The translations under genes were made by a program, and so were the position numbers. From positions 1-28,002 of IMG/VR virus record IMGVR_UViG_3300018080_000493: a stretch of DNA of 28,002 nucleotides; one strand, given 5' to 3'. The first letter of the stretch is position 1. Each line of letters begins with the position of its first letter. Below the pieces are notes generated by a model. It saw only the letters and a list, made by a program, of their open reading frames with translations. It did not search any database and was not told where the DNA came from. This DNA comes from a virus. This document shows, piece after piece, positions 1,408 to 12,119 of the stretch.

Positions 1408-1536
1408 TAAATTGTGCGACATTATGTCGCGATTTCTAGAAATTATATTTTAGAGTGCGATTTTTTCAGAGAGGAAATATCGCGAAAAAATAAAGAAACC
1501 TCTTAGTTTATAAAAAATAGGAGGTGAAACTATAGG
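1408..1536 (+). promoter_or_regulatory. MCP leader with hairpins
   Basis: A 129-base gap before the capsid gene. It contains a perfect 6-bp hairpin GCGACA-TTA-TGTCGC (1416-1430), the palindrome ATTTCTAGAAAT (1432-1443), and an imperfect longer hairpin from GCGAT (1457-1461) to ATCGC (1479-1483). None is followed by a clear T tract and I see no convincing sigma70-type promoter. Processing, transcript stability or phage-specific late control are possible roles. The MCP ribosome binding site AGGAGGTG is at its right end. Confidence 0.4.
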
Positions 1537-1839
1537 ATGACATCATTTGAAAAAGCTCTGAGTACTACAAGTGGAAGTGGGGGAGACGTTTTAGTTCCTC
1601 AGTTAGCAGATCAGATTATACCGTTTATTCGTCAAAAATCATATCTTAGACAGTTTTTGCTTAGCTTTGATCAGCCTACACAGACCTATAGGTTTCCTAA
1701 GATAACTACTGGGGCAAACGTTTATTATGTTTCAGAGTCAAGTTCTGCTCCTGAGCCATCAGTGGCTACAGGGCAAATCGAACTCACCGCGGTAAAGCTT
1801 ATGTCAGCAATTACGTTAAGTGCCGAATTAGAAGAGGAT
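1537..1839 (+). CDS. Major capsid protein, exon 1 (residues 1-101)
   Basis: First exon of the HK97-fold major capsid protein, which forms the icosahedral head shell. Exons 1537-1839, 2828-2900, 3746-4041 and 5197-5499 join to 975 nt, or 324 residues plus stop. Exon 1 encodes the N-arm and early P-domain (VPQLADQIIPFIRQ, then LSAELEED), a typical MCP beginning. ATG 1537 follows AGGAGGTG. If unspliced, the frame enters intron 1 and stops at 1858-1860, giving a truncated protein. The exon ends in phase 0 at T1839. AGAGGAT (1833-1839) pairs with intron GTCCTCT (1850-1856), ending in the U-G pair expected of a group I 5' splice site. Joined to exon 2 the protein reads LEED-AVLPIVPVMRDEL, the usual capsid context. 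Very likely. Confidence 0.9.
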
Positions 1840-2827
1840 AAATACTGTTGTCCTCTATAAATTGCATTAAAACGGTGAAACACTTTAAATAAGGAGGTGA
1901 ATACATAATGAAGATTCAATGCCCGATATGTTTAAAATATTATTATAATTTAACAGGTAAGCATTTATTAAAGCATGGATATAAACGTGTTAAAGACTTT
2001 AGAAAAGATTATCCAATAGCAAAAGTAGTTTCTGAAGAAGTAAGTAAAAAATTGTCAAAACACTATAAAAAAGTTAATCATAATCAAGAAAAAGCAAAAC
2101 TAACAAAATTGAAGAAATATAAAAATGGTTTTGGAAAAACTGATTGGAATAAAGAGCTTACTAAAGAAATGGATGAAAGAGTTAGAATGAATTCTAAGTC
2201 TATTAGTAAAACGTGGAAAAATAAAAGTCAAAAAGAATTAGAAAATTACGGGAAAGAAATTAGCAAAAGATTAAAGGGTAGGGATTGGGAAAATTTGATG
2301 GGCATTGAAGAAGCGCAAAAAAGAAGAAAGTTATATCAAACGTTTACCGGAGAAAAAAGTAATTTTTATAAAGATGGTCGGAGTATAGATAGTATTGATA
2401 ATTATGGTCAAAATTGGAAGCAAATAAGAAAATCGATTTATAAAAGAGATAATTGGATTTGCCAAGAATGTAAAAGTAAAGATAAAAAAGTATTGTGTCA
2501 TCACATAAAAAATTATCTTGATTTTCCTATAAACAAACGGGGAGTAGAGATCAATTGCGCTAACAACGAGAGAAATTTAATAACACTATGTTTTTCTTGT
2601 CATTCTAAATTATGTAACACTGAGATTTTAAAAGTCAATACCGTGAGGTATATGGATATTATAAAGTCCAAATATCTTGTAACGACTATGTGTCCGTAGG
2701 AGACTATGGATGCTACGTGCAACACACAAAATTGTGTGATGATATAGTCTGAACTCTATGGTGACATAGAGAAATAAGAAGAAATTCTTATTCGCCTTTA
2801 CCCCAAAGGTTTTAAAGTAACAAAATG
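1840..2827 (+). ncRNA. Group I intron 1 in the capsid gene (IA2-like)
   Basis: 988-nt self-splicing intron hosting an HNH endonuclease gene. P1 is exon AGAGGAT with GTCCTCT (1850-1856). P10 is intron AATACTGT (1841-1848) with exon 2 GCAGTATT (2828-2835), 8 pairs including one G-U. Core elements are ACGACTAT (2682-2689), GAGACTAT (about 2699-2706) and GATATAGTCTGAAC (2741-2754), followed by a hairpin with a GTGA loop. The intron ends in GTAACAAAATG with terminal G at 2827. The core resembles the T4 td intron as I remember it. The intron interrupts the capsid frame with phase preserved. Confidence 0.9.
1908..2699 (+). CDS. HNH homing endonuclease (intron 1)
   Basis: 263 residues. The N-terminus is a Cys2His2-like finger (C5, C8, H19, H23; CPICLKYYYNLTGKHLLKHG). 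The lysine-rich middle has one DWNKELTKEMDERV unit (about 79-92) and a GRDWENLMGIEEA segment, both like NUMOD-type DNA-binding modules. The C-terminal HNH domain runs about 166-235: KRDNWICQEC (C185, C188), HH at 198-199, a central Asn (219/220), then CFSC (C228, C231). ATG 1908 has the ribosome binding site AAGGAGGTG 10 bases upstream. The last residues are encoded inside the ribozyme core, with stop TAG 2697-2699. Such enzymes cleave intronless alleles and spread the intron. HNH class is confident; target specificity is unknown. Confidence 0.9.
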   Translation: MKIQCPICLKYYYNLTGKHLLKHGYKRVKDFRKDYPIAKVVSEEVSKKLSKHYKKVNHNQEKAKLTKLKKYKNGFGKTDWNKELTKEMDERVRMNSKSISKTWKNKSQKELENYGKEISKRLKGRDWENLMGIEEAQKRRKLYQTFTGEKSNFYKDGRSIDSIDNYGQNWKQIRKSIYKRDNWICQECKSKDKKVLCHHIKNYLDFPINKRGVEINCANNERNLITLCFSCHSKLCNTEILKVNTVRYMDIIKSKYLVTTMCP

Positions 2828-2900
2828 GCAGTATTGCCAATCGTTCCCGTAATGAGAGATGAATTGGCTAAAGCTTTCGCATATGCGGAAGAAAATGCGT
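2828..2900 (+). CDS. Major capsid protein, exon 2 (73-nt exon)
   Basis: Encodes 24 residues plus the first base of a Phe codon (AVLPIVPVMRDELAKAFAYA and on to EENA). This is the conserved MCP helix in which the chain makes the AKAFAYAEE-type signature. The exon begins in phase 0 after intron 1 and ends at T2900. T2900 joins TC at 3746 to restore TTC, so the protein reads EENAF-INGD. The exon has no start codon or stop of its own and appears as non-coding unless the splicing is recognised. Confidence 0.88.
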
Positions 2901-3745
2901 TCGAATTAATGAGCGCCAATTAGAAGTAATTCTAATTAGCAAATTTTACTATATCGGAAAAAATCTTTAGGAGGTGAAACTTTAAATGGCAAAAGGATAT
3001 CCTGCTTGGAATAAAGGATTAACAAAAGAGACGGATGAGCGGGTAAAAAAATATGTAGAAAACTCTAGTAAAAGTTTGAAAGGTAGAAAGAGTTGGAACG
3101 AAGGATTAACTACTAAAACAGATGAAAGATTAGCTAAATCAGGAAAGAAAATACGAGAAACAAGATTAAAGAATAATTCTTATAAATCGTGGAACAAAGG
3201 TCTTACAAAAGAAAGTGATAAAAGAGTAGCTAAACAAGGTTTATTGGTTAGTATAAGTAGAAAAGGAAAAACTTGGGAAGAAATTTATGGTATAGATCAA
3301 GCAATTATTTTAAAACAAAAAGCTAAGAAAAGATTATTAGGTAATATAGAAAAGTTAGATTTGAATTATGGATTAGAATGGTTGGTAATACAGAAAAATG
3401 TTTTAAAAAGAGATAATCATATTTGTAAAGTTTGCGGTAAAAAAGCGAGTCGAGTTCATCACGTAATACCTTATAGAGTAATTAAAAAACATGATAAAAA
3501 GTATTTAGTATCTACATGTGTTAAATGTCATTTAAAAGTTGAACCAAAGATAATTCCGACGGAAGAGATTACCTTTGATTGGTATATAAATTATTATATC
3601 AGTAAAGGTGGGAAACTCCCGCTAGAGACTACACGTAAAAATCCAGAAATGGAATATGATATAGTCCGAACTTCGAATATAAATAAAATCGAAGAGCTAT
3701 CTGGAAACATGATAGCCCTCTAAATATTAGAGAGTAACAAAATTG
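2901..3745 (+). ncRNA. Group I intron 2 in the capsid gene (IA2-like)
   Basis: 845-nt intron. P1 is short: exon GCGT (2897-2900) with GCGC (2913-2916), ending in U-G. P10 is convincing: intron TTAATGA (2906-2912) pairs perfectly with exon 3 TCATTAA (3746-3752). The core has GAGACTACACG (from 3625) and GATATAGTCCGAAC (3658-3671), then a CTTCGA...TCGAAG hairpin. The end GTAACAAAATTG (terminal G 3745) matches introns 1 and 3. Splicing restores the Phe codon split by the intron. Confidence 0.87.
2986..3723 (+). CDS. HNH homing endonuclease (intron 2)
   Basis: 245 residues. The N-terminal part has three tandem copies of a W-N-K/E-G-L-T-x3-D-x-R unit (W8-V20, W37-L49, W69-V81), a NUMOD3-like DNA-binding repeat. 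A GKTWEEIYGIDQA segment follows (94-106). The HNH domain spans about 128-185: KRDNHICKVC (C147, C150), HH at 158-159, and CVKCH (C178, C181, H182). ATG 2986 follows AGGAGGTGAAAC. Unlike the other two endonucleases, the frame continues through the conserved intron core and P9 region, so residues from about 205 onward are also ribozyme sequence. It lacks the Cys2His2 finger seen in the proteins of introns 1 and 3. Confident for class. Confidence 0.88.
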   Translation: MAKGYPAWNKGLTKETDERVKKYVENSSKSLKGRKSWNEGLTTKTDERLAKSGKKIRETRLKNNSYKSWNKGLTKESDKRVAKQGLLVSISRKGKTWEEIYGIDQAIILKQKAKKRLLGNIEKLDLNYGLEWLVIQKNVLKRDNHICKVCGKKASRVHHVIPYRVIKKHDKKYLVSTCVKCHLKVEPKIIPTEEITFDWYINYYISKGGKLPLETTRKNPEMEYDIVRTSNINKIEELSGNMIAL

Positions 3746-4041
3746 TCATTAATGGTGACACAGATCATGCAGCAACGGCAACGCAGGAATCAAGCGCTAC
3801 AGAGGATAATTGGTATCAGTACGATCAAAGATTAGCGTTTGATGGATTAAGAGGAGTAGCGGCAGGAACTTCAGTAGATTTGAGTGGATCAGCATTGACA
3901 TTAGGAGATGTTTCAACAAGTATTAAAAACTTGGGAAAATATGGAAGAGATAAGGCAGAACTATTATTGATTGTTGCGTTAAGAGAAGAAGATAAGCTTC
4001 GTCAATTGTTAGGTCTTAATCTCGCATTGAATCAATTGGGT
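3746..4041 (+). CDS. Major capsid protein, exon 3
   Basis: Encodes about 98 residues of the capsid protein (INGDTDHAATATQES ... LNQLG). It includes the loop after the conserved helix and a segment ending in an LRxLLxLN...NQLG pattern typical of MCPs. It starts in phase 2, completing the Phe codon begun in exon 2, and ends in phase 0 at T4041. TTGGGT (4036-4041) pairs with intron GCCCAA (4057-4062), defining the 5' splice site of intron 3. Unspliced, the frame would read about five codons into the intron before TAA. Confidence 0.88.
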
Positions 4042-4133
4042 AAATTTAAAAATTAAGCCCAAGCAAAATAAATTAAAATGCTGGAAACTGCTTAGAGTTC
4101 AATAAACTACAGCATAATTACTTGAAAATACTT

Positions 4134-4210
4134 GGGGCTTTAAGATTAGAGTTATAAACTAATCGATGGTGCTCCTGCACCAAGCCCCTATTTATTCCAG
4201 GAGGAATAAA
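4134..4210 (+). promoter_or_regulatory. Structured leader with sequestered ribosome binding site for the intron 3 endonuclease
   Basis: Two adjoining structures. First, a three-way junction: GGGGCT (4134-4139) with AGCCCC (4183-4188), enclosing GATTAG/CTAATC (4144-4149/4159-4164) and TGGTGC-TCCT-GCACCA (4167-4182). Second, a perfect 8-bp hairpin: TTTATTCC (4191-4198), loop AGGA, GGAATAAA (4203-4210). Its loop and 3' arm contain the whole AGGAGG ribosome binding site (4199-4204), and it ends one base before the ATG at 4211. Folding would hide the site. This is directly visible; the regulatory effect is inferred by analogy with T4 intron endonuclease genes. Confidence 0.7.
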
Positions 4211-5077
4211 ATGGAAAAAATAAAAAATGTGTTAGGAATAGATTATATAATATGTCCTATATGTAATCAAAAATTACGAAGGTTAGATGGCGGGCATATT
4301 CAGAAAGTTCATGAATTAACTAAAAAAGAGTTTGTTAGTAAATTTCCTAATTATCTTTGTTTTTGCAAAGGTTGGAAAGATGGAGTTAGCAAAGGATTTG
4401 GATGGAAAAATCAATCAAAAGCGACTGAAAGTAAAAGAACTAAAAATTATCGTGAACAGAGAAGTAGAATGAGTAAGGAAATTATAAATCGTATAGGAAT
4501 GAAAGAATATATAAGTAAACGAACTTCTGAAGGTATGTTAAATAGAACTCGGGAACAAGTTGATAAGTGGAGAACAAATTTTCGTAATACAATAAATCAA
4601 CTAGATTCAAAGTTTATGAAACACGTAGATGATATGAATGAAAAAAATAAGTACAAAATCAAGAAGTATAAAACAGGTTGGTTTATTACTAAAGATAATA
4701 GAAAATTTTGGTATAGAAGTGGATTAGAATTGAAAATAATGCAATGGTTAGATAAAACACATTTTAGATGGGATTTTGAAAAAGAAAAAATATTTATTAA
4801 ATCTTTGGGTAAAAACCATATTCCAGATTTTTGGATATATGATTTAAATATAATATTGAATCCTAAAGGAAATTTGAATAACATTTCAAAGGAATTAGAA
4901 TATAAAAAACAATTAGAAGATGAAACTAATGTTTTTAAGAGCTTTATTATTCCGGTAAAAGAATGTGAAGAAATCCTAAAATTAAATCCAAGTAATAAGT
5001 GCGAATGTTTAAAAATTATTGAAATTGCACAATCAGCAACCGAGCGAGTAATCGCAGGCTCAACGACTATCCCTTAG
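4211..5077 (+). CDS. PD-(D/E)XK-like homing endonuclease (intron 3)
   Basis: 288 residues from ATG 4211, chosen because AGGAGG (4199-4204) sits 6 bases upstream; an earlier in-frame ATG at 4166 has no such site. The N-terminus is a Cys2His2-like finger (C15, C18, H29, H34), similar to that of the intron 1 enzyme. The middle is basic and helical. The C-terminal half looks like a PD-(D/E)XK nuclease: FWYRSGLELKIMQWLD with E173, then HIPDFWI (P205, D206), then IILNPKG (K219). The usual acidic residue before X-K is Asn (N217) here. No HNH, LAGLIDADG or GIY-YIG motif is present. Stop TAG 5075-5077 lies in the ribozyme core. Being an intron endonuclease is very likely; the fold is a moderate-confidence call. 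Confidence 0.75.
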   Translation: MEKIKNVLGIDYIICPICNQKLRRLDGGHIQKVHELTKKEFVSKFPNYLCFCKGWKDGVSKGFGWKNQSKATESKRTKNYREQRSRMSKEIINRIGMKEYISKRTSEGMLNRTREQVDKWRTNFRNTINQLDSKFMKHVDDMNEKNKYKIKKYKTGWFITKDNRKFWYRSGLELKIMQWLDKTHFRWDFEKEKIFIKSLGKNHIPDFWIYDLNIILNPKGNLNNISKELEYKKQLEDETNVFKSFIIPVKECEEILKLNPSNKCECLKIIEIAQSATERVIAGSTTIP

Positions 5078-5196
5078 GGGAGTAGAGTTCAAGAGAACTC
5101 GAAAAAATTTACATAGAAAATCTATGATGATATAGTCTGAACTCATATGAAAAATATGAGAAAATATATGGAATCGATATATTTGTAACATAATTG

Positions 5197-5499
5197 TTAA
5201 CAGGAACAGCATTGCCAGGAGAAATCGGTAAAGTTTGGGGTGTTCCAGTTATAGCAACTTTATTGTTGCTAGAAACTTATACCACAGACGAAGCAAGTGC
5301 AGTTAGTGGTACTTATTCTAATGCTTTAATTCTTAACAGGAATGCTGGAATTATAGGCGACCGTAGAATATTTACAATAAAGTCTTCTGATGAATTGTTA
5401 ATACAGACAGATCAGCTATTGATGGTAGCAAGTGAAAGATTAGCATTTAAAGCTCAATATACTGATGCAATTGTTAAAGTTTCGAATATCGGAGCATAA
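5197..5499 (+). CDS. Major capsid protein, exon 4 (C-terminus)
   Basis: Last 100 residues plus stop. It begins TTA ACA GGA in phase 0 after the intron 3 terminal G. LTGTALPGEIGKVWGVPVIA is the well-known MCP motif (tGelGkiyGipVi type). The end, LMVASERLAFKAQYTDAIVK, matches the capsid C-terminal pattern in which the last strand returns to the A-domain/P-domain core. An internal TTG at 5194 is not a real start; it straddles the splice site. A strong hairpin follows 30 bases after the stop. Confidence 0.9.
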   Translation, partial: LTGTALPGEIGKVWGVPVIATLLLLETYTTDEASAVSGTYSNALILNRNAGIIGDRRIFTIKSSDELLIQTDQLLMVASERLAFKAQYTDAIVKVSNIGA

Positions 5500-5951: not shown

Positions 5952-6620
5952 ATGTCTGATTCTTATGTTTATTGTACAACAACACAAGTTACTAATTTAT
6001 TAAATCCTATTTTAGGATCAAGTGATTCTATTCTTACAGATACTTATATAGATAATGCAATCGCGTTAGCAAAAAATTATATAGATAATGCTACGTTTAG
6101 AGATTTTTCAGAGCATACAGATGATATAGAATGGCATGATGGTAATGGAAGGGATAGTATAAATACATATAATTATCCTATATTAAGTTTAAGCTACGTA
6201 ATTATGTATAATCAATTAATGCAGGCTATGAGAACTTTTTTAGATACTGAATTAATTATACACCCAGAATGGGGGGAAATATTTTTACCCCCAATTTATC
6301 CAGTATTTTTATCTGATAAACCTTTTTCGGCAATGTTTGGAAATGTTTTTATATCTGGAAGAAGAAATATAGAAATAAAGTATTCTTGGGGATACGAAAC
6401 CCCTCCAGATGATATTCAATATGCATGCACATTAATGACGGGTACTTATTTGTTGCAACAAAAAGGGGGATATATAAGTGCGGGGGTTACAAGCCGCTCT
6501 ATCGATGGATATTCTGAAAGTTATGGTAAAATGCCATTTGAGGGACTTTTAGAACAATGGCAAAAACAAGTTGATGCAATAATAATGAAACACAGGAGGC
6601 TTACTCCGCGTGCAATATAA
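5952..6620 (+). CDS. Head-tail connector (adaptor) protein
   Basis: 222 residues. The N-terminal part (YCTTTQVTNLLN ... TDTYIDNAIALAKNYIDNAT) is the helical start common to head-tail adaptors of the HK97 gp6/SPP1 gp15 type, which bind under the portal. The middle has a longer insertion (about 60-125) with NYPILSLSYVIMY and IEIKYSWGYETPPDDIQYAC, a pattern often seen in these adaptors. The C-terminal helix ends HRRLTPRAI. It overlaps the next gene by 11 bases, so the two are probably coupled in translation. Family identified from pattern and gene order only. Confidence 0.7.
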   Translation: MSDSYVYCTTTQVTNLLNPILGSSDSILTDTYIDNAIALAKNYIDNATFRDFSEHTDDIEWHDGNGRDSINTYNYPILSLSYVIMYNQLMQAMRTFLDTELIIHPEWGEIFLPPIYPVFLSDKPFSAMFGNVFISGRRNIEIKYSWGYETPPDDIQYACTLMTGTYLLQQKGGYISAGVTSRSIDGYSESYGKMPFEGLLEQWQKQVDAIIMKHRRLTPRAI

Positions 6621-8496
6621 TAAATTACCTAAAAATAGAATATTTAAAGCGCCAACTGAAAAAGCCATTAAGTTACCTTCGTTAAAAAAATTAGGAGCTG
6701 GTATTAAGGGCGCCGTAGAGGGATTTAAATCAGGGATGTCTCAAGAGGGAAAAGAGAGAACTGGACATAAATATATAAAACGAGAAAAAACGCCAAAGGG
6801 ATGGAGATATTGGTATAAAACTCCAGAAGGAAAAATGTATAGCCGGTCTTCTTCTGAGACTAAGGATAAGACTAAAAAGTTCCCTAAGGAAAAGCCAACT
6901 AAAGTTCCTAAAGAAAAACCAATAAAGGCCCCTAAAGAAATTTCTATTAAAGAGGCTAAAGAACAATTTCCAGAGGAAAAAGCTCCCGAGCAAATAAAGC
7001 GTCAGCCTATTGCTGGTGGAGATATGGATGATATGAGAAAAATATATTCAAGGCTTGATGAAATAGAAAAAATAGCTAATACTAAATTAAAGAATCATCC
7101 TGATAGAGATTCTTTTTTAAAAGATGTATATGATTTACGTAAAGATATGGAAGAAGCTTTTGGTAAAGAAAATTTAATAAGTGAAAAAACTAAAATGCAG
7201 TTAGAAAAAGAAGAAATGAGACGCTCTGCTCATAAGAAAAAATATAAACAATATAAAGAGCGAGAACAAAAAGAAAAAGAAATAGAGCGAGCTGAAAAAC
7301 AATTTGGAGAAAAAACATTTCCAGAAGAAAAAATAAAAGAATATGAATTACCTAAGCCTAATAAATTATCTTCACTTTCTAAAAAAGAAGTGGCTAAAGA
7401 TAGTTATAATAAAACTTTAGAAGATTCTGCTAAACAAATAAATGATTTATTGAAAGATGCAAAATTAAAATCTAAAGTTAATAATATAATAAAAGGACCC
7501 GCTGTAATAAGATTTGAGATTCCTGTAGCTAAAGGGGATAGAATAGGAAGAGTATTGGGACCTGCTTTTGAAAGGGATATTGAATTTATAACTGGGAAAA
7601 AGGCTAAATCAAGGGCTCATCCTACGAAAGATAATACAGCAATAATTGAAATTCCAAGAGATAATCCTGATATGATTTCGTTTAAAGATATAATATCTGA
7701 TAAGACATTTGATGAAGCTAAGGGGGAAGTAAAAGCTGCTTTAGGAAAAGATTCTATAGGCAACACTGTAGTTACAGATTTAACAGCAGCTCCACACATG
7801 CTAATTACGGGGTCTACTGGTTCTGGTAAAAGTGTTGCTGTAAATAATATTATAAATAATATACTATCTAAATATAAGCCCAATGAGGCACAATTAGTTT
7901 TAATTGATCCAAAAAAAGGCGCTGAATTTAATAAATATAAAAATGTTCCACACTTATCTGGAGATGTTGTAATTTCTCCTGAAGGGGGAGTTGGAGCAAT
8001 GAAGGCAGTAGTTGATGAAATGAATGATAGATATAAGAAAATTTCAGATGCTGGAGTTAAAAAAATAGAAGATTATAATAAATTAGAAGGTATTAAGAAA
8101 TTACCACAAAAATTTGTTGTAATAGATGAATTTGCTGAATTAAAACAACTTGCAGGTAAAGATTTTATGAATATGGTTAAAGAAATAGGGCAAATGGGAA
8201 GAGCAGCCGGAATTCATTTTGTATTAGCCACTCAATTTGGATCTGCAGATATTTTATCTAATAATCTTTTAAATAATGTTCCAACTAGATTAATGATGAG
8301 TATGCCTCCAGATGCTATTGCATCTAATGCTGCATTAAGAAAACTTGGGGTTGATAAATTATCGCGAGCAGGGGATTCTATTTTTAGTGGAATAACTAAT
8401 CAAGGTAAAAAAGAAGTTAAAAGATTGCAGGGAGCTTTTATTTCGGATAAAGATATTGATAATATAGTTAATCAAACTAAATCACAAGGATTATAA
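6610..8496 (+). CDS. FtsK/SpoIIIE-like DNA translocase ATPase fused to a basic N-terminal region
   Basis: 628 residues from GTG 6610, with AGGAGG at 6594-6599; the start overlaps the previous gene. Residues 1-290 are hydrophilic and rich in Lys/Glu/Pro, with GHKYIKREKTPKGWRYWYK near 52-70, a motif I associate with phage head proteins, and coiled-coil stretches. Residues about 295-625 are an FtsK-type motor: ITGSTGSGKS (Walker A, K407), LVLIDPKKGAEF, KFVVIDEFAEL (Walker B, D506/E507), and FVLATQF, ending KEVKRLQGAFISDKDIDNIV as FtsK cores do. There is no membrane region and no room for the C-terminal winged-helix gamma domain. A DNA-pumping role is expected for the family; why it sits among head genes is unknown. 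Confidence 0.88.
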   Translation: MQYNKLPKNRIFKAPTEKAIKLPSLKKLGAGIKGAVEGFKSGMSQEGKERTGHKYIKREKTPKGWRYWYKTPEGKMYSRSSSETKDKTKKFPKEKPTKVPKEKPIKAPKEISIKEAKEQFPEEKAPEQIKRQPIAGGDMDDMRKIYSRLDEIEKIANTKLKNHPDRDSFLKDVYDLRKDMEEAFGKENLISEKTKMQLEKEEMRRSAHKKKYKQYKEREQKEKEIERAEKQFGEKTFPEEKIKEYELPKPNKLSSLSKKEVAKDSYNKTLEDSAKQINDLLKDAKLKSKVNNIIKGPAVIRFEIPVAKGDRIGRVLGPAFERDIEFITGKKAKSRAHPTKDNTAIIEIPRDNPDMISFKDIISDKTFDEAKGEVKAALGKDSIGNTVVTDLTAAPHMLITGSTGSGKSVAVNNIINNILSKYKPNEAQLVLIDPKKGAEFNKYKNVPHLSGDVVISPEGGVGAMKAVVDEMNDRYKKISDAGVKKIEDYNKLEGIKKLPQKFVVIDEFAELKQLAGKDFMNMVKEIGQMGRAAGIHFVLATQFGSADILSNNLLNNVPTRLMMSMPPDAIASNAALRKLGVDKLSRAGDSIFSGITNQGKKEVKRLQGAFISDKDIDNIVNQTKSQGL

Positions 8497-8500
8497 AAAT

Positions 8501-9262
8501 ATGGGGTCTTTTAGATATGAGGCTATAAAACGACAAATAGAAAGAGGTGGAGTTGATGCTATCTTCTATAATCGTTTACCTTGTAATACTTCCACATATG
8601 TTGTTACGGATGAAGAAAGAACCTTTCCAATATTAAATACTAGTGGAACTACAGTTAATAGATTTACTTTATATGGGGAAACTAATGTAATAGGAAGAAC
8701 TGTTGATTGGGGATTGGATGATACCTCTGTTCAAAGAAATACTTTTGTATTGGCATCTGGAACTAGTCAAGCGAGAATGTATGTGTCCGGTACAGATTTT
8801 AATTTATATCCTGATTCTGGAGAAGTTGTTAGAGTTTCAGGTAGCAGTATTTCATATGGAGCAACTGTTTATTGCACTTATAACTGGGAGAGACCATGTA
8901 TTGATGAATCCACTGGGGGACCTAATAAATCTTGTCCACAATGTTCAGGAACTGGTGGATTTTGGGGGAGTGGAACTCATATAACTGGGCTATTTCATAT
9001 ACCAAGATATGATTCCCCATTAACTAAATTAGGATATTTTGAAACTGGGGATATGCAATTTACTTATCCATATGAATATCAAATTGATGTTAATTCTAGT
9101 GGAGATGATAGTTTATATTTAAGGGATAGGCTAGTTATTAATGGAGAAGAATGGAGAGTAATGAGTAAGCCAGAGACAATTCAAATGGCTAATGAATATT
9201 TTGTTAAAAAACTTCATTGTAGAAGATTTAAAACTTCTCCAGGCACGGAGACTATTTCATAA
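8501..9262 (+). CDS. Putative head-closure/neck protein with a Cys-rich insert
   Basis: 253 residues. The C-terminal part (LYLRDRLVINGEEWRVMSKPETIQ) resembles head-closure proteins that sit between adaptor and tail. Residues about 80-128 form a beta-rich stretch (YVSGTDFNLYPDSGEVVRVS ... ATVYCTYNW) like the small beta modules of phage tail proteins. Between them lies PC(133)IDESTGGPNKSC(145)PQC(148)SGTGG, with a CxxCxGxG unit as in one half of a DnaJ zinc finger. A zinc site from C125/C133/C145/C148 is possible. It is 4 bases downstream of the ATPase gene without a strong ribosome binding site, suggesting coupling. Function inferred from order and weak similarity. Confidence 0.6.
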   Translation: MGSFRYEAIKRQIERGGVDAIFYNRLPCNTSTYVVTDEERTFPILNTSGTTVNRFTLYGETNVIGRTVDWGLDDTSVQRNTFVLASGTSQARMYVSGTDFNLYPDSGEVVRVSGSSISYGATVYCTYNWERPCIDESTGGPNKSCPQCSGTGGFWGSGTHITGLFHIPRYDSPLTKLGYFETGDMQFTYPYEYQIDVNSSGDDSLYLRDRLVINGEEWRVMSKPETIQMANEYFVKKLHCRRFKTSPGTETIS

Positions 9263-9264
9263 AC

Positions 9265-9822
9265 ATGACAAGAAATATTTTAATTAATTTAGATTATAAT
9301 GCTTTAACAAAAAGATTTAATACAAAATCTGAAATAGAAGCACAAATGTCTTATTTAGTTGAAGATGAAGCTAAGAAGTTAAGAGATCAAATTCGAGAAA
9401 CAATTCCAGCGGTAGGAATTAGAATAAAAGGGAATAGGTTACTAAATGCTGTTAAGTATACTATGATTAATGATTATACTGCTAAAGTGTATGTGGATGA
9501 TAAAGAAGCACCTTATGCTAAATACTTAGAACACGGATATAGTGCTTTTTCTATGCGAGAAGGTCTTTTATCGGGAAAATCTTCTAAAATTAGTAAAAAG
9601 GGATTTAGATATGCAAGAATACCCGTAGAGGGAAAAGTGTTAACCATAACTGAAGATAGAAGCTCAATGAAACGTAGAAGAGGGGAATTTATTCATTCTG
9701 TTGGGAATACTCGTTGGCATCATCCTGGATATTGTGGAAGGTTGTTTTTTCAACAAGCGGTTGAGATAAGAGAATATGAAGTTATCAAAAGAGTTCAAAA
9801 ATTTCTTAATGAGGTAACATAA
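9265..9822 (+). CDS. Tail-completion/neck protein, HK97 gp10-like
   Basis: 185 residues. The pattern is that of HK97 gp10-like neck proteins: an N-terminal helix with alternating charges (EIEAQMSYLVEDEAKKLRDQ), KVYVDDKEAPYAKYLEHGY in the middle, and a C-terminal WHHPGYCGRLFFQQAVEIRE, the hhPG...ff..A signature. These proteins join head and tail or complete the tail end. Starts 2 bases after the preceding stop. Confidence in family is good for a sequence-only call. Confidence 0.75.
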   Translation: MTRNILINLDYNALTKRFNTKSEIEAQMSYLVEDEAKKLRDQIRETIPAVGIRIKGNRLLNAVKYTMINDYTAKVYVDDKEAPYAKYLEHGYSAFSMREGLLSGKSSKISKKGFRYARIPVEGKVLTITEDRSSMKRRRGEFIHSVGNTRWHHPGYCGRLFFQQAVEIREYEVIKRVQKFLNEVT

Positions 9823-10679: not shown

Positions 10680-12119
10680 GTGAGTGTAACTTGGAGAGGA
10701 ACAACATATATACAACCTCAAGCGGCTACTTATACAGATACAACTGGATTAGCAACTCTTGGATTAGCAGCATCGGGAGTTTTAGCTATTATAGGTACAG
10801 CTGAGGGAGGTACGCCAAATGCAGCTACTAAATATACAAGTCCTGCAGAAGCAAGAAATGATTTTAGGGGAGGTAATCTTTTAGTAGCTATGGAAGCTGC
10901 TTGGGCTGAAGGAGCAAGAACAATTTATGCAACGCGAGTTGGAGCAACTTCTGGAACAGCAGCCGCCCAGCCTTGTCAGCAAGCTAGATACGAATTAACT
11001 TCTAGCTCTACCCCAGTAATGAGATTAACAGCTATTGATTATGGAGATTGGACAAATAATATTAAATTTAAAATTGAATCAGGAACAACGAGTGGTAAAA
11101 AAATAACCTTACAATATTATAATAGTTCAACTGGAGTAACAACTACTGAAACGCAAGATAACTTAGCTGATTGTAATGCACTTTGTGGATGGGTAAGTAA
11201 TAATTCTAGTTTATGTTCTGGAACTGTTTTAAGTAGTTACGGATCAAATGAACCTGATAATGTGGGGTATACTAATTTAGCTGATGGAGGAGATGGAGAT
11301 AGTCCTACAACCGCTAATTGGACAACAGCAATAGCCCTATATGATAATGAAGATGTTGATATTGTTCATGTTGCAAGCTCTAGCTCTACTATACATGGTT
11401 TAGTATCAACACACTGCACTACTACAGCGACAGATAAAAAAGAGAGAATTGGGGTTGTTGGAGGAGCTTTATCTGAAAGCGTAGGAAGTTGGGATACAGA
11501 TGGTAGTACAATAGAAAGAGCTTATAGTTTAAATAGTGATCGAATGGTATTAGTGGCTCCAGGAACTACTTCTGGAGGGACTGCTTATGCACCATATGTA
11601 ACAGCGGCAAGAGTTGCGGGAGCTTTAGCGGCGGTTGATGTTGCAACACCATTGACGCATAGAAAACTATCATGTACAGCAATTGAATCTAAATATACAA
11701 GTTCGAATAAAGATGATTTGATAACATATGGAGTTTGTGGAATAGAGCAAGTAACTTCTGGAAGAAGAATTATAAGGGGTATTACAACGGCTCAAAATAT
11801 AAGTTCTACTACAGAACATCCATTTAAGGAAATTTCTACAAGAAGAATAGCGGATTATGTTAATAAGACAATAAGAGATAATCTTGAAGCAACTTATGTT
11901 GGTAAAAAAGGTGTTGAGGGAATTGAATCTTCAATAGCTTCAACGACTACTTCGTTGTTAGTAAAATTAAAGGAACAGCAAATTATTGTAGGATTTAAAG
12001 ATGTTGTTGTATCACAAGATAGTACTGATGCTACAGTTTATTATGTAACATATAAAATAGCGCCAGTGCAACCAATTAATTATGTACTAATAGAAACAAA
12101 ACTATCTAATACATTATAA
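10680..12119 (+). CDS. Tail sheath protein
   Basis: 479 residues from GTG 10680 with ATAAGGAGGG upstream. Contractile sheath subunit that surrounds the tube and shortens on infection. Evidence: the N-terminus GVLAIIGTAEGGTPNAATKY, then AMEAAWAEGARTIYATRVG, is the sheath domain-I pattern (probable glycine-rich loop followed by the A-W-x-x-GA motif). The large Ser/Thr-rich middle (about 85-230) is a protruding domain. The C-terminal part (STRRIADYVNKTIRDNLEAT, then VVVSQDSTDATVYYVTYKIA) is the conserved sheath core including the C-terminal arm. Length fits a standard sheath. A strong hairpin follows 10 bases after the stop. This identifies the phage as a myovirus type. Confidence 0.88.
   Translation: MSVTWRGTTYIQPQAATYTDTTGLATLGLAASGVLAIIGTAEGGTPNAATKYTSPAEARNDFRGGNLLVAMEAAWAEGARTIYATRVGATSGTAAAQPCQQARYELTSSSTPVMRLTAIDYGDWTNNIKFKIESGTTSGKKITLQYYNSSTGVTTTETQDNLADCNALCGWVSNNSSLCSGTVLSSYGSNEPDNVGYTNLADGGDGDSPTTANWTTAIALYDNEDVDIVHVASSSSTIHGLVSTHCTTTATDKKERIGVVGGALSESVGSWDTDGSTIERAYSLNSDRMVLVAPGTTSGGTAYAPYVTAARVAGALAAVDVATPLTHRKLSCTAIESKYTSSNKDDLITYGVCGIEQVTSGRRIIRGITTAQNISSTTEHPFKEISTRRIADYVNKTIRDNLEATYVGKKGVEGIESSIASTTTSLLVKLKEQQIIVGFKDVVVSQDSTDATVYYVTYKIAPVQPINYVLIETKLSNTL

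Follow-up and report, generated by a model that had tools for sequence, protein, structure and literature searches.

Genome entry in the known tailed phages is thought to be driven by pressure or transcription, or by internal proteins that are ejected. Membrane-containing viruses are known to have packaging ATPases of the FtsK/HerA type (PMC4267777, PMC7824862), and for a podovirus with an FtsK gene a function in replication or concatemer handling was proposed (PMC13299392). The polyvalent proteins of phages are reported to be encoded in the vicinity of late virion genes, and their injection is assumed; the text of the survey of these proteins names an FtsK winged-helix domain, but not a complete FtsK motor (PMC5512222). 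A literature search with incomplete coverage revealed neither an FtsK carried in the virion of a tailed phage nor a report of the GHKYIKRE tag described below.

Here we analyzed a viral DNA stretch of 28,002 nucleotides (the window), which encodes an FtsK-like protein between two genes of the head-tail connector type. This position is referred to as the slot and the encoded protein as the slot protein. The uncultured contractile-tail phages with an FtsK in the slot probably possess, besides the normal packaging motor, a pump that is carried in or built into the particle. The features of the locus are compiled in Table 1.

Table 1. Features of the window around the slot gene.
Feature	Position	Strand	Basis
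Upstream head-tail adaptor/connector	5952..6620	+	phrog_442 E 9.5e-18; kept upstream of slot in relatives
Shine-Dalgarno-like AGGAGG, before slot-gene GTG start	6592..6600 (approximate)	+	sequence
FtsK-like slot protein	6610..8496	+	GTG start, 628 aa; Pfam FtsK_SpoIIIE E 5e-49
N-terminal tag GHKYIKRE..GWRYWYK.PEGK, aa 52-80, predicted 3-stranded beta element	6763..6849	+	pattern search, model
Confident helical region, aa 139-250	7024..7359	+	AF2 model
FtsK alpha domain, about aa 254-357	7369..7680	+	Pfam, model, Foldseek
FtsK beta (RecA-like) motor: Walker A aa 401-408, Walker B D506/E507	7684..8440	+	Pfam, alignment, model, Foldseek
Downstream virion structural protein	8501..9262	+	phrog_1004 E 2e-8
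HK97 gp10-like neck/tail completion protein	9265..9822	+	Pfam/PHROG match; conserved order
Tail sheath (contractile tail)	10680..12119	+	phrog_279 E 2.5e-71

Results

The slot protein contains a complete FtsK motor core

The slot gene is a single open frame of 628 codons without internal stops, and its first 11 nt are shared with the 3' end of the connector gene upstream. The relative L003 supports this start, as its ortholog has the same N-terminus and also begins with GTG; comparison of both genes indicated purifying selection (dN about 0.35, dS about 0.96). Pfam assigned aa 254-316 to FtsK_alpha (E 3.5e-6) and aa 359-542 to FtsK_SpoIIIE (E 5e-49). As in the FtsK/SpoIIIE motor superfamily, an alpha domain precedes a RecA-like beta domain with Walker A and Walker B motifs, both in Pfam and in the model. 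An alignment of 44 viral FtsK sequences revealed that K407 of Walker A and E507 of Walker B are invariant and that D506 is nearly so.

With this alignment as input, AlphaFold2 produced a model of the window slot protein with a mean pLDDT of 83.8. The model consists of a 3-stranded element (aa 55-80), helices at ~139-250, the alpha domain, the beta domain and a last helix, with low confidence for aa 1-52, 84-108 and 121-136. A Foldseek comparison with the PDB identified the DNA-bound FtsK motors 6t8o/6t8b (E about 1e-33, TM 0.84 at target length) with about 31% identity across the motor. The AF2 model of the slot protein from the relative G004 was poor at the P-loop part (mean pLDDT 41) and confident only at about aa 300-400; the PDB matches of this part had scores of a common arrangement, and no fold claim is based on this model.

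A gamma domain (C-terminal winged helix) was not detected by Pfam at E<=1, and the model contains one helix after the motor. Pfam and the model also showed no nuclease domain behind the motor, as would belong to the architecture of a terminase large subunit. Before Walker A no hydrophobic 19-mer is present in the ortholog (locus L050), and the N-terminus of the window protein is rich in Lys and Glu. The slot protein has one evident enzymatic domain, plus the tag and a stalk. A preliminary description, made from the sequence alone, had reported a complete motor core with K407 and D506/E507 and the absence of the membrane and DNA-sequence-reading domains; Pfam, the alignment, the model and Foldseek agree on the former, and the lack of a gamma domain and of a hydrophobic N-terminal segment bears out the latter.

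The slot is conserved in divergent phages

Upstream of the gene lies a phrog_442 and downstream a phrog_1004 homolog, as expected from the earlier placement between head-tail connector genes. The search for phages with FtsK in the same position, which had been proposed together with this placement, was successful: slot homologs with a P-loop are located between the same two connector-type genes in four divergent relatives (L003, G003, G004 and L039). L003 encodes a full-length ortholog which is 56% identical to the window protein, sits at the same place and overlaps the connector. G003 (73.8 kb), G004 (178 kb) and L039 (12.6 kb) were found by scans with the neighboring structural proteins and the slot alignment, and their slot proteins comprise 1006, 751 and 745 aa. 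These three are divergent phages, because their connectors are about 50% and their sheaths about 46% identical to those of the window. They share the gene order protease/Zn-ribbon, major capsid, connector, slot, phrog_1004-type, gp10-like, tail completion and sheath. In the window and the relatives the slot gene overlaps the connector by 11 bp or 1 bp, or starts within 4 nt of its stop.

Using tblastn, the G004 slot protein matched the window protein across aa 53-458 (E 2e-10), and it matched that of G003 with E 3e-54. A profile built from the slot proteins of G003, G004 and L039 aligned with viral FtsKs over the stretch that extends from Walker A across Walker B to the TQ motif (93% probability, E 3e-7), and the Walker A lysine and the Walker B DE are readable in all five slot sequences. 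The G003 protein has an unassigned N-terminal extension of 260 aa; visual inspection had suggested an ART-like N-terminus, which Pfam did not confirm.

The much more distant L031 contains a 338-aa tag protein without P-loop between connector and phrog_1004 homologs; hence slot and tag also occur where the motor is lacking. In Leptospira phages a phrog_1004 homolog is present and small proteins without the tag occupy the slot. A sheath query against viral contigs yielded zero relatives, and scanning the slot and connector alignments against genome contigs revealed no relative either and thus yielded no prophage or host.

The preliminary description had also considered a common replication or partition gene brought here by a recent rearrangement. 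FtsK genes are indeed common in phages and bacteria, but the slot is kept in five divergent phages, with full-length or profile-level homology. This contradicts the recent insertion of a replication gene or host gene that has no part in the virion, and we find this explanation hardly credible. Judged by these comparisons, the slot gene is a long-standing, fixed member of the connector operon.

Some further observations were made in the capsid and portal region. The major capsid gene of the window is split (1531-5496); pieces matching an intact relative are found at 1531-1839, 2828-2902 and 5134-5496, with HNH/endonuclease-type ORFs between them (1908-2699, 2986-3723 and 4166-5077). Rfam detected a cluster of nine group I introns that lie within the capsid gene region of G003 or close to it (L009 252-1066, 4847-6937), and none in the window at the cut-off. 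Positions 1-1407 encode a prohead protease/scaffold-like protein with two CxxC..CxxC zinc ribbons, which are kept in relatives. A gene intervening between portal and protease (L007 6825-7976, L034 14868-15857, G004 62781-64217, L039 2-934) resembles zincins in two relatives and sigma factors in the other two, with a common C-terminal part.

The N-terminal tag recurs in unrelated phage proteins

The region before the motor comprises about 250-290 aa and includes the tag, whose general form is GHKYIKRE..YxYxY. The fusion of the motor to a head-protein-like motif had been noticed before, and this motif indeed often recurs beside head genes. A degenerate 24-nt pattern of the tag matched 20 viral stretches; in 19 of these it falls within an open frame, and there a Y-rich strand always follows beyond the searched pattern. 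The proteins bearing the tag are otherwise unrelated: SNF2 DarB-like (L014, L015), RadC/JAB (L018), LPD1 (L025) and zincin (L024). At several loci TerL, portal or major head genes lie within a few genes of the tag, with the order TerL-tag-portal at L016, TerL and portal at L017, the portal at L025 and the major head protein at L014; at L028 the tag adjoins a protein with minor-head/DarB-like domain matches. No recognized head gene was found beside the tag at L013/L019/L027/L032, L018 and L020. The slot protein of L039 has no recognizable tag, and a tblastn query of annotated phages with just the tag yielded only matches at chance level. The gene context suggests that the tag may act as a packaging signal.

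A second family of short N-terminal motifs (GHKAYxRMTPTGK, HxRxSxxGKxFxAGxG) was observed in several proteins encoded upstream of the portal in G003 (L033-L036) and G004 (L041-L049). It also opens the G003 slot protein and is possibly another cargo tag.

Among 80 viral FtsK loci the tag was present in the ortholog only and absent from the other 79. At the sampled other loci the neighbors were mostly regulators, endolysins and peptidases, with some tail genes. Within the searched set, the tag fusion and the connector slot are therefore specific to the group. The same comparison bears on a late enzyme outside the virion, which would act on replicating phage DNA in concatemer segregation or repair and would merely be encoded in the structural operon. 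Such a role would agree with the location of most phage FtsK genes outside head operons and with the replication/concatemer function proposed for one of them (PMC13299392), but the restriction of the tag fusion to the ortholog and the fixed slot that five divergent phages have in the connector operon make it quite unlikely.

G004 encodes a terminase in addition to the slot motor

No terminase was seen in the window, a 28-kb fragment. G004 has an exact terminal repeat of 211 bp and, on this basis, is probably a complete genome of 178 kb. It encodes a TerL (phrog_2, E 5.6e-19) about 22 kb from the portal, and the slot motor is present in the same genome. Profile searches with Terminase_6N and phrog_2 were empty in all records; they were not used as evidence because phrog_2 missed known TerLs, namely those of the control L017 and of G004. 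Most simply, the absence in the window would be an effect of the fragment. The earlier observation that the window shows no terminase was thus correct, but the accompanying hint that the FtsK stands in for it fails, since TerL and slot motor occur together in G004. A slot motor packaging DNA instead of terminase would fit the window, and the fold of the slot protein is that of a dsDNA pump; in the light of G004 and of the fragmentary window we give this explanation practically no weight.

Discussion

The best explanation of these data, for which we consider the chances to be about even, is that the slot protein is a virion-associated dsDNA translocase, probably packaged and delivered together with the genome and acting on incoming dsDNA. 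We infer both its presence in the virion and the step at which it acts. The Lys/Glu-rich N-terminus and the small beta element would route the protein into the head or the inner neck during assembly, and on infection it would exit the particle along with the genome. In the host cytoplasm six subunits would load onto the incoming dsDNA, and the hexamer would move along it powered by ATP; the formation of a hexamer and the translocation of DNA are predicted from the modeled motor. Loading is expected to proceed without KOPS-type sequence recognition because the gamma domain is missing. The movement might pull in the rest of the genome, strip off bound host proteins or clear the path for replication. 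Of the candidate roles in the preliminary description, that of a virion-enclosed protein is the most fitting, given the occurrence of the tag in polyvalent-type proteins encoded next to head genes.

The position between the connector genes would also suit a neck component that is not ejected, and an assembly role at the neck or portal is the main rival to a virion-delivered motor. The N-terminal stalk would dock on the portal or neck and the motor would work on the DNA while packaging proceeds or as it ends, to clear proteins or to hold or release the DNA, with no need to enter the host. The slot directly between the head-tail adaptor and neck genes, with a start that coincides with or adjoins the stop of the preceding gene, is consistent with this role, as are the FtsK/HerA-type packaging ATPases of membrane-containing viruses (PMC4267777, PMC7824862). 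On the other hand, G004 already contains a terminase, the tag is also fused to SNF2, JAB and LPD1 proteins without evident packaging role, and the slot protein of L031 has no motor. We therefore regard an assembly accessory as a real possibility, though on the improbable side.

If delivery with the genome is true, an FtsK motor carried by the virion would give tailed phages a distinct way of bringing in DNA. A bolder version, in which the particle of a tailed phage contains a pre-made FtsK ring that internalizes the genome from the cell side by ATP hydrolysis, and GHKYIKRE is a shared, unnamed head-targeting tag of many cargos, appears doubtful to us. Independent of the role of the motor, the recurring tag offers a sequence handle to predict head-packaged phage cargo, which usually needs proteomics.

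Comparison with known systems

The slot protein resembles FtsK/SpoIIIE (PDB 6t8b/6t8o/2iut) in its motor, which has the alpha and beta domains and both Walker motifs. It differs in the lack of a gamma domain and of a predicted membrane part, in the long Lys/Glu-rich N-terminus with the head-cluster tag, and in its location in a phage connector operon. With FtsK-like proteins of phages (phrog_1358, phrog_3551; mycobacteriophage Redno2 gp191) it shares the FtsK motor, with a sequence match of E 8e-67. The examined proteins of the phrog_1358/phrog_3551 type, unlike the slot protein, are without the tag and have neighbors other than head-tail connectors. The HerA/FtsK packaging ATPases PRD1 P9 and NCLDV A32 belong to the same ATPase superfamily and likewise represent virus-associated dsDNA handling, but the slot group has the portal, sheath and terminase (G004) of a tailed phage, and the slot protein is much larger than ATPases of this type and carries a phage tag. 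Polyvalent and head-packaged proteins (P1 DarB, MuF fusions, LPD proteins) are similar with respect to the late virion cluster: the slot gene of the window and its relatives is encoded among virion genes, and the N-terminal element is common to SNF2, JAB and LPD1-bearing proteins of the polyvalent kind. The slot protein differs in having one evident enzymatic domain, a complete FtsK motor, which the survey text (PMC5512222) does not mention.
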